From: Arthrobacter sp. HY1533
Lineage (GTDB): Bacteria > Actinomycetota > Actinomycetes > Actinomycetales > Micrococcaceae
Reading direction: 5' to 3'
Length of the DNA stretch: 64,000 bases
Assembly (NCBI RefSeq): GCF_027568515.1
Contig: NZ_JANKZF010000008.1
Span: 124,001-188,000, forward strand
The notes beneath the pieces were generated by a model. That model saw nothing but the letters and a program-made list of their open reading frames with translations. It was not told the DNA's origin and ran no database searches. The translations under genes were made by a program, and so were the position numbers. This document shows positions 27,229-34,159 of the stretch, piece after piece; the first letter of the stretch is position 1, and each line of letters opens with the position of its first letter.

Positions 27229-27260
27229 GCCGGACCCGCCACGTTCATGGCGGGTCCGGC
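27229..27260 (-). terminator. Hairpin downstream of the GH95 remnant
   Basis: GCCGGACCCGCCA (27229-27241) pairs perfectly over 13 bp with TGGCGGGTCCGGC (27248-27260) around a six-base loop. It stands in the same place relative to the truncated GH95 3' end as the strong hairpin does behind the intact gene. Confidence 0.65.
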
Positions 27261-27297
27261 CTTCAGCCGCTTCTGCGGCGGCTACATGCTCGCAGCT

Positions 27298-27427
27298 TTA
27301 GCTCGGCGAGAATGGCTTGGTCTTGTGGCCCGGCTTGGTGGGCTTGACCTTGTAATCCTTGCCGTTCATCCGCACAGTGATGTTGCCCTGGTTGAGTGAC
27401 TTGTCGCCAATGACAACAACCTCGGTC
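27298..27427 (-). pseudogene. C-terminal remnant of a second GH95 fucosidase gene
   Basis: The last 42 codons before TAA at 27298 read TEVVVIGDKSLNQGNITVRM, then NGKDYKVKPTKPGHKTKPFSPS. This differs at only a few positions from the last residues of the intact GH95 protein. DNA identity over about 125 bases is also high, including the codons around the stop. Upstream of about 27427 the similarity ends abruptly at the less GC-rich islet. The stretch has no start codon with a ribosome binding site and is best read as the 3' scar of a duplicated GH95 gene whose body was lost or replaced. Confidence 0.85.
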
Positions 27428-27475
27428 ACCAAGTCGCCAATCAACTTGGCCACGACACGGATGAGATCGCGTGGG

Positions 27476-28189
27476 TTACGGGATCGTCTCCACAGACACG
27501 GCTCGGAGCCAGCCATCTGTAGTCTCGCCGTTGATCGTCGCTTCACCGCTCTCCAGCACCATATGGACCTTCGTGCCGTCGCGCCACTCGGAGGTCTCAG
27601 ACTTGTCAACGAACACTCTAAGATCCTGGGCTCCCCCTTGAGCCTTTAGCAATACTGAGAACTCTCCGGTCACGCCGGTCGTCCAAAGGTCGGACATGAA
27701 CAGTTCGCCAGTCAGTTGAAACTGGTCCCCGTTCTTGATCCCGCCCAACTTGGCGGAGTTGAGTTTGTCCAGCAGGTCATCGACTGTAATGGTTGTGATT
27801 TTGGGGGAGACAATTGTTGACGCGGCTGATGGCGTGGCTGCTTCAGGCAGCACAGCTGATGGCGTAGCTGCTTCAGGTACCACGGCTTGGGTTGCAGATT
27901 GCGTCGGTACGGGCTCTGCAGCATTGCCCGAGCTGTCACCGCCCCCGAGTGCAGTGATGATGGTGATCATGATGGCCAAGAGTGCAAGTAGTCCACCGCC
28001 GATGCCGACCAGTTTCCACGGGATCTCTGGTTTCCGGCGCCGGAATATCAGCTCCGACCTCACTTTCCCTTGGGTCTGAGATACGAATTCCCAGCCCTCG
28101 TTCTCCAGCTTGGTCCTGATCCTTGATTCCAGTCCGCGAACCGTCTTTACAGACCTCGTCGCGTACTTCGCATCTGTAGCTGTCGTCAT
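27476..28189 (-). CDS. DUF4839-like single-pass membrane protein
   Basis: The protein has 237 residues. The N-terminal part (about residues 1-56) has the pattern RSVKTVRGLESRIRTKLENEGWEFVSQ...LIFRRRKPEIPWKL seen in DUF4839-like actinobacterial membrane proteins. One transmembrane segment follows (LVGIGGGLLALLAIMITIITAL). Next comes a Pro/Ala/Thr-rich linker with two near-identical ten-residue units (EAATPSA repeats), then an external beta-rich domain with GDQFQLTGELFMSDLWTTG and a tRNA-anticodon-like fold pattern. The gene is 42 bases downstream of the helicase on the same strand and shares its lower GC content, so it may belong to the same transcription unit. Function unknown. Confidence 0.72.
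   Translation of the reverse strand: MTTATDAKYATRSVKTVRGLESRIRTKLENEGWEFVSQTQGKVRSELIFRRRKPEIPWKLVGIGGGLLALLAIMITIITALGGGDSSGNAAEPVPTQSATQAVVPEAATPSAVLPEAATPSAASTIVSPKITTITVDDLLDKLNSAKLGGIKNGDQFQLTGELFMSDLWTTGVTGEFSVLLKAQGGAQDLRVFVDKSETSEWRDGTKVHMVLESGEATINGETTDGWLRAVSVETIP
27825..27884 (-). repeat. Two 30-bp tandem units in the linker of the membrane protein
   Basis: Units at 27825-27854 and 27855-27884 differ by few bases and encode the repeated EAATPSA segment of the extracellular linker. Confidence 0.8.
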
Positions 28190-28231
28190 GCTGTTCCTTA
28201 ATGGCATCGATATCAAGTACTCGCATAAAGC

Positions 28232-31126
28232 CTAGAGTGCTGCGGCGATGTACTCAAAGAGTCCGTCTTCGATGGGACTCACGAAATCCAGACTCATTGT
28301 GACGACGTCCAGTTCCTTGCCGCCATCACCTAACATCGTGGTTTGCACCGCATCCCTGGAGCCGGCCTGACCTAGATAGTAGAAGTCGGATCCTTCTGCA
28401 TCGTCTTTCTTGACGAATACGTGTAGTGGAACCTCGCCGTCGACGATGGAACGAACTTCTCCGCTCTTAAGCGTGCGTTTGCTCCTCGTGAACCACTTGA
28501 GAGTTGAAGCATCCACAAATTCGTCTTCGTACTTGGTGCTCTCGGTAACGTGATCGGCTTTGTGGTAGGTAACGAAGATCGGGCAGGTCTGGGAGAATGC
28601 GTCTACCTTGTAGCCATACATGGTGCTGTATTCGTTGGCTTTCCAGTTCAGGAGTCGGCAAACATCCTTGCGGGAGTACATTTTGCCAATTTGCAGGCGG
28701 CCTGATGGATGGTAGCGGTGGCGGGAAAGGTACAAGCCCGTGGACACCAAGTCGTCGATGTGTGTTCTGAGCTTCTTCGATCCTCGAAGCAATGAGCGGG
28801 CGCTATCAGACAAGCTGAAGACGCCGTTTTCGGTCACAACGACGGGTCCCGCACCGTACTTGCTTCGTTCAGCTGCCGTGAAGAATTCGAGGGACATGAT
28901 GCGCTGGACCGAATCAATGGTCGCGTCATCGTGGGTGCAACCCTTCGAGTGCAGAAGATCTCGATAGTCGTCGCGACTGATGTGTGCGGTTCGGATCAGG
29001 TGTTCAAGCAGCAATAGCTCGTGTGCGCGCTTGCCGTTCAGAAGCTCTGAAGACAGGAAGTTTAGGAGCGCCGCTTCAGGTTCTGTGGGAAGTGTGGCTT
29101 CCTCTTTGAACTTGTTCTGGAGGATCCAGTAGTTCTTACTTTTAGTGGCAACCACTACGGGATCGGCGCTGTCGAACCGGGCAAAGTCGTGCAGCATGGG
29201 TGGGCGTCCCAGCCGATGCTTGAGGGCAACGAAGGCAGACTTGAGATTGGCCATGCTGTCCAATGATGTGATGGCCAGCGACTGAAGTACCCGATCCCGC
29301 GAAACTTTGTCGAAGTTAACGCTGGAAAGCCCGGAAATCGTGCCGGCTTGGTCAGCGTTTATCAACTTCTTGCGGATTACATCCTTGTTGAGCGAGCTGT
29401 CGCCAACCAAGGCAATAGGAATGAGAAAGTTGTTTGCGTAGTTTCCTATGAAGTCGATAACGCGAAGATGGTCTTTGCCAGGTGCTTTGCGGAGACCACG
29501 TCCCAATTGCTGTGTGAAGATGATGCTTGATTGTGTTTGCCGCAGCATGACCACTTGGTTGACCGATGGAATGTCGATGCCTTCATTGAAGATGTCGACT
29601 GTCAGGATGTAGTCGAGACCGCCTGCTTCCAGGCGTTCGACCGTTTCGTTTCGGAATTCGACCGAGTCTTTGCCCGTCAGGACTTGTGTGCGCAATTTGG
29701 CGCCATTGACGAAGTATTCGTTCAGTAGACGGGACAGTTCGTGCGCTTCATCGCGGCGACTGCAGAACATTAATCCACGGGTTGGACCGACATGACCATA
29801 GGTCTTGATGGCTTGGATCAAATATGCAACTCTTTCAGGTGCCACAAGCCGCGAAAGGTTGGAAGTCTCATCGACAGTTGTGCCGTCCGCTTCCACATAG
29901 TCGGTTACGCCGTAATAGTGGAACGGTACGAGCATCTCTGCTTCGAGCGCCGCCTGCAACCGAATTTCGTAGGGGACGTTGTAGTCGAATAGGTCGAACA
30001 CATTGAACTCATCAGTTCGTTCTGGCGTGGCAGTCAGACCCAACAAGAAATTTGGGCGAAACCAGTCAATCATTCGACGATAGCTGTCGGCGCCGGCCCG
30101 GTGGACCTCGTCAATCAAGATGTAGTCGAAATGATCCTTGTTGATGCTTTCCAGGGTCTCCGGCTTGGACAGAGACTGGATCGTTGCGAAGACGTATTGC
30201 CGGTCTATTTCGCGTCTGGCCCCAACGAACTTTCCAAACTGGGTTTCGTCGACGCCAAGGACTCGCTGAAATTCTTCCATGGCCCGGTCCAGGATCTGCT
30301 CACGGTGGACGACAAAGAGCATTCGCTGCGGATTGACTGCGCGAACATCGAGGGCAGCGAGGATGGTTTTACCGGTGCCTGTTGCAGAGATGACCACGGC
30401 ACGGCGTTCCCCAGTCTCACGAACCTCGCTGATTGCCTCCAGGGCCTCCATTTGCATGGTGTTGGGAAAAATCTTTTGTAGGCCGAGTTTTACATCGGGT
30501 TCCAGCGCAGTTGGGTGGTCCTCTGCAAGGGTCTGCGAGTTTTGAACATACGATTCTTCGTATGTATCAATCCATGATTCCGTGAGTGTTTGTGAGGTGT
30601 CGATTTGGCGCCTAATGGCACCGTGGAGTTGCTCAACGATGTCGCCGCCGGGGAGTGCCGAGAACCGGAGATTCCATTCCAGGTTCTTGAGTAGGGCTTT
30701 GGAAGTGAGGTTCGAACTCCCGACGATTGCCGTGGTCGCGTCTGTTTGACTAAAGACGTATCCCTTGGCGTGAAATCCGCCAGGCGATCCAGGGTGGATG
30801 TACACGTCAACGTTGTTGAGTGTGAGCAGTTCCCGGAACATTTCTGGGGAATTGAAGTCCAGGTACGTCGAGGTGACTATGACACCGGAGCCCTGGAAGT
30901 CCAGCAATGCCTGCTTCAACAGTGCGATGGCTCCAGTTGTCACAAATGCCACTGAGACGACGAAGTGTTCGGAGCGCTGCAGTTCCTGACGGATGGCACG
31001 CAGCATGGTGTTCTCATCTTCGTTTGAGATGAGGACTGGGTGGAACAACTGTTTGGATTCGGTAGCCGAGTCAATGAAGCCAAAAGCGGTGTCAGCCCGC
31101 ACGCCACCGGCCAAACTGAAACTCAT
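28232..31126 (-). CDS. PLD-like nuclease / DEAD-box helicase / DUF3427 fusion protein
   Basis: The 964-residue protein has three parts. Residues 25-180 are a PLD-like domain with FHAKGYVF (His119, Lys121) and GSSNLT, as in restriction-type phospholipase D nucleases. Residues 215-560 are a superfamily-2 helicase: Walker A SATGTGKT at 247-254, DEVH at 339-342, motif III LTATPER and motif VI QLGRGLR. The C-terminal third is DUF3427 (MYSRKDVCRLLNWKANEYST, then CPIFVTYHK...FTRSKRTLKSGE). Such COG3886-COG1061-DUF3427 proteins recur in mobile and defence islands and are predicted to act on foreign DNA. Start ATG 31126 overlaps the NUDIX stop by four bases, so the two proteins are co-translated. Base composition is clearly less GC-rich than flanking genes, suggesting horizontal transfer. 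Confidence 0.92.
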   Translation of the reverse strand: MSFSLAGGVRADTAFGFIDSATESKQLFHPVLISNEDENTMLRAIRQELQRSEHFVVSVAFVTTGAIALLKQALLDFQGSGVIVTSTYLDFNSPEMFRELLTLNNVDVYIHPGSPGGFHAKGYVFSQTDATTAIVGSSNLTSKALLKNLEWNLRFSALPGGDIVEQLHGAIRRQIDTSQTLTESWIDTYEESYVQNSQTLAEDHPTALEPDVKLGLQKIFPNTMQMEALEAISEVRETGERRAVVISATGTGKTILAALDVRAVNPQRMLFVVHREQILDRAMEEFQRVLGVDETQFGKFVGARREIDRQYVFATIQSLSKPETLESINKDHFDYILIDEVHRAGADSYRRMIDWFRPNFLLGLTATPERTDEFNVFDLFDYNVPYEIRLQAALEAEMLVPFHYYGVTDYVEADGTTVDETSNLSRLVAPERVAYLIQAIKTYGHVGPTRGLMFCSRRDEAHELSRLLNEYFVNGAKLRTQVLTGKDSVEFRNETVERLEAGGLDYILTVDIFNEGIDIPSVNQVVMLRQTQSSIIFTQQLGRGLRKAPGKDHLRVIDFIGNYANNFLIPIALVGDSSLNKDVIRKKLINADQAGTISGLSSVNFDKVSRDRVLQSLAITSLDSMANLKSAFVALKHRLGRPPMLHDFARFDSADPVVVATKSKNYWILQNKFKEEATLPTEPEAALLNFLSSELLNGKRAHELLLLEHLIRTAHISRDDYRDLLHSKGCTHDDATIDSVQRIMSLEFFTAAERSKYGAGPVVVTENGVFSLSDSARSLLRGSKKLRTHIDDLVSTGLYLSRHRYHPSGRLQIGKMYSRKDVCRLLNWKANEYSTMYGYKVDAFSQTCPIFVTYHKADHVTESTKYEDEFVDASTLKWFTRSKRTLKSGEVRSIVDGEVPLHVFVKKDDAEGSDFYYLGQAGSRDAVQTTMLGDGGKELDVVTMSLDFVSPIEDGLFEYIAAAL

Positions 31127-31548
31127 TGGCCGTGTTCCCTTACAAGCCGGTCGACGGCGGGAATATCAGCGGGTGCCCATTCCAGCGTGGGAAGGTCGGG
31201 TACAGGAACCCATCGGATGTCTTCGTGCTCTGTCAGCTGCGGGACGCCCTCAATCAGGTGACAAAAATAGGTGGTCAGGATGACAATGCCGAAGTCGTAC
31301 TCGTATTCAGTAGTCTCGAGATGATCACCGATCTCTGCGGTGCACAGGAGCTCCTCTTTGAGCTCCCTGCGGAGGGCGTCTTGTGGGGATTCCCCAACTT
31401 CGATCTTGCCGCCGGGAAACTCCCACATGCCAGGGAGAGACATGGACTTTCCACGTTTTGCAGCAAGAATAGTTTCGCCGTCCACTAAAACAGCCCCTAC
31501 AACATTGATGCGCTTCTTGGGTTTGGGGTTCGAATCGTGACTTGTCAT
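31123..31548 (-). CDS. NUDIX hydrolase ((deoxy)nucleoside triphosphate pyrophosphohydrolase, MutT-like)
   Basis: This 141-residue protein has a clear Nudix box starting at Gly47 (GGKIEVGESPQDALRRELKEEL), with the metal-binding RE-x-x-EE group at residues 61-66. The usual Gly in the last part of the box is Leu. MutT-type members hydrolyse (d)NTPs or damaged nucleotides to monophosphates. The ATG at 31548 is used because the upstream frame runs into the 5' region without a ribosome binding site. It is the first gene of the islet operon and overlaps the helicase start (ATGA). This tight coupling suggests a joint function, for example nucleotide depletion or product clearance linked to the nuclease-helicase. 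Confidence 0.92.
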   Translation of the reverse strand: MTSHDSNPKPKKRINVVGAVLVDGETILAAKRGKSMSLPGMWEFPGGKIEVGESPQDALRRELKEELLCTAEIGDHLETTEYEYDFGIVILTTYFCHLIEGVPQLTEHEDIRWVPVPDLPTLEWAPADIPAVDRLVREHGQ

Positions 31549-31711
31549 AATCGACCAGGCTAGCAGTTGATACCTCTTGAAGGCCCAATCCGTGCGGTCA
31601 TCGGGGGCTCGGTCAATTGGCGTATACAACCTGCGCGGTTCGTCACGTACTGCGCAGTAACAATCCCGCATGCCACAGTGGATCCGTACCCGCTGCTACA
31701 GGAGGACCACT

Positions 31712-32518
31712 GTGACCATTCGAGACAACACCAACCGTCGGCTCAAGGAAGTTCTGGACATCATGGCCGCGGGGTCGTGGCTGGATGAGAAGCCAAACGG
31801 GGGCGAAGTCCTGGCGGAAGCTGCCAAGCGTGTCCCGTTCACCAAGGAAGAGTCCGAGCTCCTCTCCGGAGGCATTCCCCGCGGGCACAAGAACCTCACC
31901 AAGGCCACTGCAGACCTGGTCAAGGCCGGCTGGATCACCAAGGGCCGGGCCGGCTGGGAAATCACCGACAATGGACTCCGCGCCACCGTCGCCTTCAACA
32001 CCGTGGACACCCTTGCCGATGCCCTCAGCAACGGAACCTTGATTCCGGCAGAGACGCCGCTGCCCGAAAAGCCTGCCGACAATCCGGCCAAGAAGCCTGC
32101 GGCCAAGAAGGCCCCCGCCAAGAAGCCCGCTGCGAAGAAGACTGCCGCCAAGGCGAGCACCGCCAAGGCCGCGGCCAAGGCTGGGGCGGAAGCTCCCGCC
32201 GTCGTGCTGGGGGAGCAGCCGGCAACCGTTGCCCTCGCCGGTGACTTCGGCACGCTTCTGGGCGCCCTCGAAGACTGGGACCACAGCCACGGCAATGTCC
32301 AGATGCAGCTCGATTCCACGCTCGGCACCTGGAAGCTCACGGCCGACCTCCCCGCCGGGCAGTACAGCTACAAGGCCGTGGTGAACGGGTCGTGGGATGA
32401 AAACTACGGCGCGTTTGGCATTGCCGACGGCGCCAACCACGAGTTCTCGCACGACGGCGGACCCGTCACCTTCCACTACAACCACGCCACCAAGGACGTG
32501 CTGCGCGCCGACATCTAA
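31712..32518 (+). CDS. Winged-helix / Lys-Ala-rich linker / X25 (CBM48-like) domain fusion protein
   Basis: The protein has 268 residues and starts at GTG 31712 behind AGGAGG. Residues 1-95 form a winged helix (RRLKEVLDIMAAGSW...NLTKATADLVKAGWITKGRAGWEITDNGLRATV), similar to Mrr N-terminal or MarR-like modules. Residues 115-165 are a histone-H1-like tail of AKKPA repeats, expected to bind DNA. Residues 172-265 match the pullulanase X25 domain (VALAGDFG, LPAGQYSYKAVVNGSWDENYGAFG, then VTFHYNHATKDV), which normally binds starch-like glucans. A DNA-binding front joined to a glucan-binding module is unusual. A nucleoid-associated or carbohydrate-responsive regulator is possible, but no function is established. 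Confidence 0.8.
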   Translation: MTIRDNTNRRLKEVLDIMAAGSWLDEKPNGGEVLAEAAKRVPFTKEESELLSGGIPRGHKNLTKATADLVKAGWITKGRAGWEITDNGLRATVAFNTVDTLADALSNGTLIPAETPLPEKPADNPAKKPAAKKAPAKKPAAKKTAAKASTAKAAAKAGAEAPAVVLGEQPATVALAGDFGTLLGALEDWDHSHGNVQMQLDSTLGTWKLTADLPAGQYSYKAVVNGSWDENYGAFGIADGANHEFSHDGGPVTFHYNHATKDVLRADI

Positions 32519-32573: not shown

Positions 32574-33473
32574 ATGACACTGGACGCGGGCGATGCCCCC
32601 CTGAGCGCTGCCCCGGCCGCAGCCTGGCAGCCGGATGGCGGCAACCTGGTGGCAGAGGGGGACAACCTCAGCTTCCTGCGCACGCTCCCGGATGAAAGCT
32701 TCCGGCTGATCTACATTGACCCGCCTTTCAACACTGGCAAGGTCCAAGCCCGCCAGAACATGACGAACGTGCGCAGCGAGACCGGTTCCCGCGTGGGGTT
32801 CCAGGGCCGCAGCTACGAGACCATCAAGGGCCTCACGCTCAGCTACAACGACTCGTTCGGTGACTACTGGGAGTTTCTGGAACCTCGCCTCGAGGAAGCA
32901 TGGCGCCTGCTCGCCGACGACGGCACCCTCTACGTGCACCTTGACTACCGCGAGGTCCACTACGCCAAGGTGTTGCTCGATGCGTTGTTCGGCCGCGAAT
33001 GCTTCCTGAACGAGATCATCTGGGCCTACGACTACGGCGCCCGGGCCAAAAAGAAGTGGCCGGCCAAGCACGACAACATCCTTGTCTACGTCAAGAACCC
33101 CAAGACGTACTACTTCAACAGCGAGGAAGTGGACCGCGAGCCGTACATGGCACCCGGCCTGGTCACACCCGAGAAGGTGGCGCTCGGCAAGCTGCCCACC
33201 GACACCTGGTGGCACACGATCGTGTCTCCCATGGGCAAGGAAAAAACCGGCTACCCCACCCAGAAACCACTCGGCATCCTGCGCCGCATCATCCAGGCGA
33301 GCACCGAGCCCGGCGACTGGGTCCTGGACTTCTTCGGCGGCAGCGGAACCACGGGCGCCGCCGCGTTGGAGCTGGAGCGCCGATTCGTCATGGTTGACCA
33401 GAACCCCGAGGCGATCGAGGTCATGCGCACGCGTCTGGACCAGGACACAGTGACGTTCATAAAGCACGTTTGA
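32574..33473 (+). CDS. Site-specific DNA methyltransferase (beta class, N6-adenine or N4-cytosine)
   Basis: This 299-residue protein has the catalytic motif IV IDPPFNTG near residue 48 and the SAM-binding motif I DFFGGSGTTGAAALE near the C-terminus. A target-recognition region lies between them (about residues 130-220). This order defines the beta class; DPPF is typical of amino methylation, more often N6-adenine. No restriction endonuclease gene is adjacent, so it appears to be an orphan methylase with a regulatory or epigenetic role. It is followed directly by the 30-bp repeat array. Confidence 0.93.
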   Translation: MTLDAGDAPLSAAPAAAWQPDGGNLVAEGDNLSFLRTLPDESFRLIYIDPPFNTGKVQARQNMTNVRSETGSRVGFQGRSYETIKGLTLSYNDSFGDYWEFLEPRLEEAWRLLADDGTLYVHLDYREVHYAKVLLDALFGRECFLNEIIWAYDYGARAKKKWPAKHDNILVYVKNPKTYYFNSEEVDREPYMAPGLVTPEKVALGKLPTDTWWHTIVSPMGKEKTGYPTQKPLGILRRIIQASTEPGDWVLDFFGGSGTTGAAALELERRFVMVDQNPEAIEVMRTRLDQDTVTFIKHV

Positions 33474-33480
33474 GTTAAGT

Positions 33481-33763
33481 GGTGCCAGGGTCTCGACAGG
33501 CTCGACCACCGGTGCCGGGGTCTCGACAGGCTTGACCACCGGTGCCGGGGTCTCGACAGGCTCGACCACCGGTGCCGGGGTCTCGACAGGCTCGACCGCC
33601 GGTGCCGGGGTCTCGACAGGCTCGACCATCGGTTCCGGGGTCTCGACAGGCTCGACCATCGGTTCCGGGGTCTCGACAGGCTCGACCATCGGTTCCGGGG
33701 TCTCGACAGGCTCGACCATCGGTTCCGGGGTCTCGACAGGCTCGACCACCGGTGCCGGGGTCC
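33481..33763. repeat. Array of nine 30-bp direct repeats plus a partial copy
   Basis: Units start every 30 bases from 33481 to 33721, with a partial unit at 33751. Each carries the core TCTCGACAGGCTCGACC, flanked by CACCGGTGCCGGGG or the variant CATCGGTTCCGGGG. The four middle units share the second variant, showing stepwise internal expansion. There are no unique spacers. Because the period is a multiple of three, several frames stay open through it, but there is no evidence that it is translated here. It lies between the convergent methyltransferase and membrane protein genes. Confidence 0.95.
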
Positions 33764-34159
33764 CTATGCGAACGGGATGATCCAGCCGAACAGCACGTAG
33801 GCGAATGCGGCCAGCGACAGCGCCCCGGTGGTGATGGCCCAGATCCAGAGCGCCCGGCGTCGCGTCTTCACGGCGAAACCGAGCAGCGGCGGGAATGTGG
33901 CCATGGCCGCAACCATCAGGAATCCGGCTGAGCCGACGGCAATTGATTGGGCCGCCTCTGCGCCGCCGGAGGAGTCGCTCACAATGATCAACAGAAGCAT
34001 GGCCAGCAGGAATGCCGGATATGCCAGGAGTGCCCAGCCGGCAAGGGTGATGCCGACCGCCCACCACTTGGAGCGTTGCGGTTTCGGGGCAGCGCCGGGC
34101 AGACTGGTGCGCGCGACGGCCAGGCGCTGGGACGGGATCTCGCGGTGGGGTCGGGGCAT
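33764..34159 (-). CDS. Small membrane protein of unknown function (first of three similar)
   Basis: This 131-residue protein has a basic N-terminus followed by about three or four hydrophobic segments (WWAVGITLAGWALLAYPAF, LLAMLLLIIV, SAGFLMVAAMATFPPLLGFAV, ALWIWAITTGALSLAAFAYV). The layout resembles the next two small membrane proteins on the same strand, suggesting tandem duplication. No function is known. The last codons run up to the end of the repeat array. Confidence 0.65.
   Translation of the reverse strand: MPRPHREIPSQRLAVARTSLPGAAPKPQRSKWWAVGITLAGWALLAYPAFLLAMLLLIIVSDSSGGAEAAQSIAVGSAGFLMVAAMATFPPLLGFAVKTRRRALWIWAITTGALSLAAFAYVLFGWIIPFA

Follow-up and report, generated by a model that had tools for sequence, protein, structure and literature searches.

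SauUSI is the described enzyme that comes closest to the locus studied here. According to the accessible text of PMC3874153, SauUSI has the same three domains as the large protein reported below, acts on DNA carrying 5-methylcytosine (m5C) or 5-hydroxymethylcytosine (hm5C) but not glucosylated hm5C, and works at two Sm5CNGS sites with ATP or dATP. The cloned enzyme is active alone in E. coli (PMC3874153), indicating that cutting can proceed without a NUDIX hydrolase; E. coli itself encodes NudG. The TagI enzyme, as far as the available literature describes it, also cuts m5C/hm5C DNA. NUDIX genes have been recorded beside SauUSI-type genes twice: a figure legend in PMC7641849 places MutT homologues beside SauUSI homologues in Streptococcus, and in S. 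suis the defence candidate PDC-S07 and a type IV restriction system co-localise in 23/23 cases, according to the part of PMC12813430 at hand. The adjacency is therefore already known from two papers, and the proposed role of the NUDIX enzyme is what is new here. In a literature search that covered few subscription papers and preprints, we found no published proposal of a role for NUDIX beside type IV enzymes, and no occurrence of the word "nudix" in 11 papers on SRA-HNH methylcytosine enzymes.

Here, we analysed a 64,000-nucleotide stretch of the Arthrobacter sp. HY1533 genome (the window), in which an islet at 27.4-31.6 kb carries three minus-strand genes encoding a NUDIX hydrolase, a PLD-SF2-DUF3427 protein and a transmembrane (TM) protein (Table 1). 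The layout agrees with that given in an earlier note on this DNA: the NUDIX stop at 31123 lies in a 4-nt overlap (ATGA) with the nuclease gene, and 42 nt separate the nuclease stop from the ATG of the TM protein. The low GC content that it described was also found, with 0.535-0.570 per islet gene against 0.665 in the remaining window, and among the 22 1-kb steps listed, the 16 with the lowest GC have their starts within 27251-31001; so was the truncated GH95 copy at the border, which in whole or in part matches the 3′ ends of GH95 genes in three genus members. The longest possible reading frame of the NUDIX gene begins at 31671 and touches the divergent gene at 31670, while homology to solved NUDIX proteins begins at residue 52 of this long frame; the ATG at 31548, giving 142 codons including the stop, is therefore the likelier start. 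A scan for promoters and terminators gave counts near those of shuffled sequence. Elsewhere in the window, tandem repeats at 33532-33780 appear in the ORF list as a VEPVETP array on the minus strand.

Table 1. Features of the islet, its flanks and the NUDIX fusion proteins compared with it.
Feature	Position	Strand	Evidence
NUDIX hydrolase (PDC-S07; NudG/MutT2-like), proposed 5-methyl-/5-hydroxymethyl-dCTP pyrophosphatase	31123..31548	-	Pfam NUDIX 3.4e-20; PADLOC PDC-S07 2.2e-51; relatives 5x1x/3gwy/5zrc; tree; AF2 fold
SauUSI-family type IV restriction enzyme (assigned by homology), 964 aa	28232..31126	-	PADLOC mREase_IV 1.1e-239 (residues 16-961); PDB 7CLG 1.7e-230 (residues 15-960)
PLD nuclease domain, residues 18-156, FHAKGY ... 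GSSNLT	30659..31075	-	Pfam PLDc_2 1.4e-8; motif also in 7CLG alignment
SF2 ATPase, ResIII + Helicase_C, ATGTGKT, DEVH	29489..30466	-	Pfam ResIII 1.1e-38, Helicase_C 1.5e-11
DUF3427 domain, predicted modified-base reader	28247..29059	-	Pfam 1.1e-83; reader role predicted in PMC7159879 (accessible part)
TM protein, C-terminal beta-rich part (low-confidence model), taken as passenger outside the module	27476..28189	-	0/80 homologous loci; AF2 pLDDT 55
GH95 3′ end remnant, 132 bp, islet edge	27299..27430	-	blastn 90-92% to GH95 tails, three genus members
Mrr_N/X25 gene, divergent, insertion-site marker, flank outside the module	31670..32518	+	match at E<=0.001 in 22/23 genus genomes, own included; same neighbour in G012
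Type IV SRA-HNH-like nuclease part with C-terminal NUDIX, single proteins	L277:2167-3438, L278:1128-2561, L279:2173-3645, L280:1995-3461, L281:1176-2423		

The best solved-structure match of the 964-aa protein was PDB 7CLG ("Putative helicase"), which aligned end to end at 770 bits and which we take to be SauUSI of S. aureus. Consistent with this, an S. aureus record contains a 51-residue stretch of 7CLG without a single mismatch, and the homologue in that record aligns with the window protein in three pieces, the two larger ones at 45% and 53% identity and the third at 40%. PLDc_2, ResIII, Helicase_C and DUF3427 lie in one chain with full-length SauUSI-type homology, and H119, K121, GSSNLT, ATGTGKT and DEVH, which are invariant in a four-sequence alignment (A1), align with 7CLG, indicating that the catalytic PLD and Walker motifs are intact. 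No cognate methyltransferase was present among the three islet genes; the methyltransferase gene at 32574 lies on the opposite strand and goes together with the conserved X25 gene of the flank in further members of the genus. Homology assigns the large protein to the SauUSI family of type IV restriction enzymes, which depend on 5-methyl/5-hydroxymethylcytosine, and from its relatives its substrate would be m5C/hm5C DNA, cut in an ATP-dependent manner. The domains named in the earlier note (PLD, SF2 ATPase, DUF3427 and NUDIX) were thus all recovered by Pfam, and its assignment of the locus to defence is right by family, namely SauUSI type IV restriction. The large protein belongs to a known family (7CLG, mREase_IV), and the idea of the DUF3427 helicase as an undescribed defence protein was rejected on the full-length 7CLG match.

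The linkage between the NUDIX and nuclease genes was followed across genomes. The nuclease scan covered one genome per species with the four-sequence alignment as the query, and the best 80 of at least 556 confirmed relatives were kept, of which 76 have a family label (15 families) and 74 a genus label (41 genera). Among these best 80 of at least 556 loci, a NUDIX gene was located within about 210 bp of the nuclease in 78: directly upstream in 73, ending within 100 bp of the called nuclease ORF or overlapping its start (for L121, which has no called ORF, the distance was taken from the match), downstream on the same strand in 2, and downstream and convergent in 3 (up to about 210 bp). The NUDIX gene lay 2.6 kb away at one locus, and at another (L159) there was none on the contig and one elsewhere in the genome bin. 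An overlap of exactly 4 nt was observed in 18 of the 72 upstream-NUDIX loci with a called ORF, again among the best 80 of at least 556, and the NUDIX gene is probably translationally coupled to the nuclease gene. Three genomes from the same family as the window, namely G030, G034 and G012 (the last with the locus at the same chromosomal site), all carry the NUDIX gene directly upstream; the G012 locus, from the same genus, is 84% identical, lacks the third gene and appears to be already included among the 80 (as L095). The NUDIX of L095 (NZ_JADHDY010000004.1) falls among actinobacterial sequences, and the Sporosarcina title of this record may be wrong.

Two further samples were chosen independently of similarity to the window. 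Among 398 genomes of Bacillota, the nuclease model matched 16 proteins above 500 bits, of which 14 had a NUDIX gene within 160 bp (upstream in 5, downstream and on the same strand in 3, convergent in 6), the exceptions being G703, with a NUDIX 14 kb off, and G629, with none at the threshold. In 396 Actinomycetota genomes, all six other proteins above 500 bits were paired, five convergently and one with the NUDIX upstream. On plasmid records, the NUDIX gene was directly upstream in 5 of the 6 best matches (S. aureus, Hymenobacter and three lactobacilli) and absent in Fusobacterium, and among 50,697 phage records NUDIX matches occurred in 8, none of them annotated. The NUDIX hydrolase is a regular partner of the SauUSI-type nuclease, in three arrangements, and a neighbour kept through such changes of gene order argues for a function. 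The coupling of the NUDIX enzyme to the large protein, assumed in the earlier note, is thus a recurrent adjacency, and "rarely adjacent" is clearly the wrong description of this pair; the conserved gene order stands for the pair and fails for the third gene.

The same measurement was made for related and unrelated nucleases. Distant DUF3427 proteins of about 1050 aa had a NUDIX gene within 5 kb in 8/25 cases in Bacillota, and were paired in 0/9 cases in the window's genus and 0/4 in Actinomycetota; that this class is mostly without NUDIX counts against the explanation that we prefer below. For shorter relatives in Bacillota the count was 3/40, two of these owing to an adjoining full-length pair. 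McrC had a NUDIX gene within 5 kb in just 1/35 cases, in a sample of 194 genomes that is smaller than the NUDIX sample (398), and on this count we rejected the idea that the linkage reflects defence islands in general. The sole McrBC-NUDIX neighbourhood among the 35 McrC matches (G637:C61, L249) consists of consecutive McrC, NUDIX and distant DUF3427 genes. In the genus members examined, the same side of the Mrr_N/X25 gene carries a distant DUF3427 protein or neither; a distant PLD-ResIII-DUF3427 protein of about 1050 aa, without NUDIX, was seen at the insertion site beside this gene in L068, L070, L071, L075, L076, L077 and L081.

The window NUDIX matches PADLOC model PDLC04899 (PDC-S07), and the glutamates of its NUDIX box, GGKIEVGESPQDALRRELKEEL, are invariant in 96 nuclease-linked sequences. 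Asp169 is present in 96/96 linked sequences and in the unlinked set too, and is Asn in E. coli MutT. Trp165 is found in 97% of the linked set versus 14% of 37 unlinked sequences, and also in 3gwy, MutT2 and 5x1x, and Glu148 in 98% of linked versus 19% of unlinked NUDIX. Unlinked here means not next to SauUSI: the set holds 37 of the 96 NUDIX from Bacillota that have no nuclease within 5 kb; of these 37, one (L235) has no gene call and four adjoin SRA-HNH genes. Among solved structures, the closest to the window NUDIX is 5x1x, a protein of methicillin-resistant S. aureus that carries the annotation "MutT", and 3gwy comes next. On an S. aureus plasmid record, the NUDIX adjoining the SauUSI homologue agrees with 5x1x at all 128 positions of the matching stretch, with 43 bp between its end and the start of the aligned part of that homologue, indicating that 5x1x is the SauUSI partner in that record. 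For 3gwy (B. fragilis Q5LBB1), the accessible part of PMC5158307 gives kcat/Km values of (4.8 +/- 1.0)e6 on 5-Me-dCTP, (4.4 +/- 1.0)e6 on 5-MeOH-dCTP and (8.5 +/- 1.4)e4 on 5-OH-dCTP, with canonical NTPs much lower.

Phylogeny placed these proteins together. In a first tree (142 rows, few columns), 3gwy and 5x1x shared a group with value 94/96 with 95 of 96 linked sequences, and MsmMutT2 and the linked L126 fell just outside. In a second tree (89 sequences), which included 34 of the 96 linked sequences, has few columns and drew a warning of long branches from the tool, all 34 SauUSI-linked NUDIX grouped with 3gwy, MsmMutT2 and 5x1x at 97/83; this group also holds five unlinked sequences, one Vsr-fused sequence and one of three linked to the distant class. 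Outside it were E. coli MutT and NudG, and the position of NudG, itself a 5-methyl-dCTP enzyme, counts against the preferred explanation. So does the presence of five of 37 unlinked NUDIX inside the linked clade: among them, L213, L224 and L235 have no nuclease-model match on the contig, L234 has a distant-class match 24 kb off and L248 a full-length match 14 kb off; Pfam searches on the neighbours of three of the five were uninformative. The AF2 model of the window NUDIX reached a pLDDT of 93.7, and its first Foldseek hit was MutT2 with 5-methyl-dCTP bound; 3gwy, 5x1x, NudG and BdRppH were also among the first ten, and MutT was at rank 32. Taken together, these comparisons favour, but do not prove, a 5-substituted cytidine triphosphate as the substrate. 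Against this assignment weigh the poor transfer of NUDIX specificity by homology and the presence among the top folds of BdRppH, a guanine enzyme that elsewhere in the Foldseek list was solved with GTP and dGTP.

A NUDIX domain was also found joined to another kind of type IV nuclease. All five long-frame Bacillota NUDIX matches examined carry the NUDIX at the C-terminus (Table 1). In the three that were scanned with PADLOC, type IV models match the part before the NUDIX, and the same three have a Pfam HNH domain; no Pfam SRA domain was found at E<=0.001 in the five fusions. The pre-NUDIX part of L277 matched 6ghc ("5-methylcytosine-specific restriction enzyme A") at 7e-19 over the HNH part, an entry that we assume to be TagI. 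It also matched McrA (5zmm/5zmn), including over an N-terminal stretch that is presumably the SRA domain of McrA, and L279 did likewise. When this part of L277 was used as the query in the 398 Bacillota genomes, 18 proteins were obtained: 6 are fused to NUDIX, another 6 have an unfused NUDIX gene upstream at no more than 170 bp, 1 has a NUDIX at 2.1 kb and 5 have none, a pairing of 13/18 that is biased upward by the query being itself NUDIX-fused. In the second tree, the fused NUDIX make up a distinct clade (value 99/91) away from the SauUSI-linked sequences, and the six unfused NUDIX beside SRA-HNH genes are scattered outside it; these separate clades point to a recruitment to SRA-HNH enzymes separate from that to SauUSI. 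A long NUDIX ORF at L131 was considered as a fusion and set aside, as it looked like a stop-free run instead. On a Collinsella aerofaciens plasmid record (NZ_OY725717.1, L266:2929-3969), a NUDIX is fused to a Vsr mismatch endonuclease, which is also tied to 5-methylcytosine.

Given the SauUSI homology, from which the restriction step is drawn, we propose a two-gene type IV module in which the C-terminal DUF3427 domain would find 5-methyl- or 5-hydroxymethylcytosine in incoming DNA, the SF2 motor would move the nuclease on DNA and the PLD domain would cut. SauUSI-like enzymes come without a companion methyltransferase, and the host would be safe only while its own DNA is unmarked; incorporation from the dNTP pool would be a route by which its genome could gain the mark without a methyltransferase. 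The NUDIX enzyme, by analogy with its relatives, would convert 5-methyl-dCTP and 5-hydroxymethyl-dCTP into their monophosphates; modified cytosines, whether released from degraded foreign DNA or made by an infecting phage, would thereby be kept out of the host chromosome, sparing it from the nuclease. We infer that such self-protection is the reason for the pairing, and we lean towards this module as a whole, rating it somewhat above even. The weak point of this reading is that McrBC, which also cuts m5C DNA, is mostly without a partner, indicating that such enzymes do not all need a pool sanitizer. A broader proposal, which we put forward tentatively and rate a little below even, is that of an unnamed self-immunity arm, in which some type IV enzymes would carry a pool enzyme instead of a protecting methyltransferase, drawn on at least two occasions from distinct NUDIX lineages, for SauUSI-type and for SRA-HNH-type enzymes, the latter even as a fusion. 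If true, the linked pool sanitizer would be an antidote, which would give a role to the defence candidate PDC-S07 and to the solved S. aureus "MutT" (5x1x), and a cell lacking the NUDIX would be expected to suffer harm from the nuclease once it is given modified deoxycytidine.

The main rival is that the NUDIX is an offensive partner, which would destroy the modified dCTP pool of the phage and so starve cytosine-replacing phages, while SauUSI cuts the modified DNA that is still made. The same substrate evidence and the linkage to a restriction enzyme fit it equally, and a dual use, with both readings holding, is conceivable. However, m5C that methyltransferases add once DNA has been replicated is also a target of SauUSI and SRA-HNH enzymes, and a pool enzyme would be useless against it; we regard the offensive role as unlikely, though a serious contender. 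Less probable still is an ordinary house-cleaning NUDIX, acting on 8-oxo-dGTP or oxidised dCTP in answer to oxidative or repair stress around the cuts, with no link to modified bases. The window NUDIX does score on the models NudG (90.6 bits), PRK08999 (89.7) and MutT (80.1), all below the cut-off, and generic relatives do lie among unrelated genes: at 36 NUDIX loci not next to SauUSI, the 138 neighbours match mostly assorted house-keeping families among those listed (25/54 PADLOC and 25/147 Pfam, with ORF L237:2-3769 left out), the best-represented type IV model having 3 members among the matches listed. PDC-S07 as a purely defence family was rejected on these neighbours. Against a house-cleaning role stand the strong linkage with two modified-cytosine cutters and not with McrBC, and a tree and fold that place the NUDIX with cytosine enzymes and MutT outside. 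A regulatory or structural partner, which would bind or degrade a nucleotide that gates the ATP/dATP-dependent nuclease, or contact the nuclease itself, would fit the 4-nt coupled overlap and the C-terminal SRA-HNH fusion; we consider it very improbable, since the NUDIX-box glutamates are fully conserved, convergent and uncoupled arrangements are common, and SauUSI works without NUDIX according to the accessible text of PMC3874153.

A three-gene system with a membrane effector is scarcely credible, although the third gene follows closely on the same strand with similarly low GC, because homologues of its product (E<=1e-20) were found at 0/80 nuclease loci (best 80 of at least 556), the 84% identical G012 locus lacks it, and its relatives lie apart from the module. 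Close relatives among 98 genomes were limited to G001 (65%, elsewhere in the genome) and G009 (broken pieces, elsewhere), with four further matches that are weak (1.1e-4 to 7.5e-4). The three-part antiviral system suggested in the earlier note thus loses its third member, and the label "DUF4839-like" was not supported either, as the TM protein matched no Pfam family at E<=1. From this distribution we take the TM gene as a passenger outside the module. The ORF adjoining the G001 relative looks integrase-like by eye.

Compared with SauUSI, the window nuclease has the same PLD-SF2-DUF3427 order at full length and the same catalytic and ATPase motifs, whereas SauUSI is presented as a single polypeptide, with no mention of a NUDIX in the accessible literature. 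The partner falls within PADLOC PDC-S07, a phage defence candidate whose model also catches generic relatives, with matches in 115/398 Bacillota genomes. With Q5LBB1/3gwy, MsmMutT2 (5zro) and E. coli NudG (2rrk), the window NUDIX shares the MutT-like fold and the Asp that replaces the Asn of MutT, at fold-alignment identities of 35-38% to 3gwy and MutT2 and 34% to NudG; these three differ in having been studied as house-cleaning enzymes, with no restriction link reported in the accessible sources. SRA-HNH enzymes of the McrA/TagI type are likewise m5C/hm5C cutters, some relatives of which have a fused or adjacent NUDIX, but their nuclease and reader are unrelated to those of SauUSI and their fused NUDIX is of another lineage.
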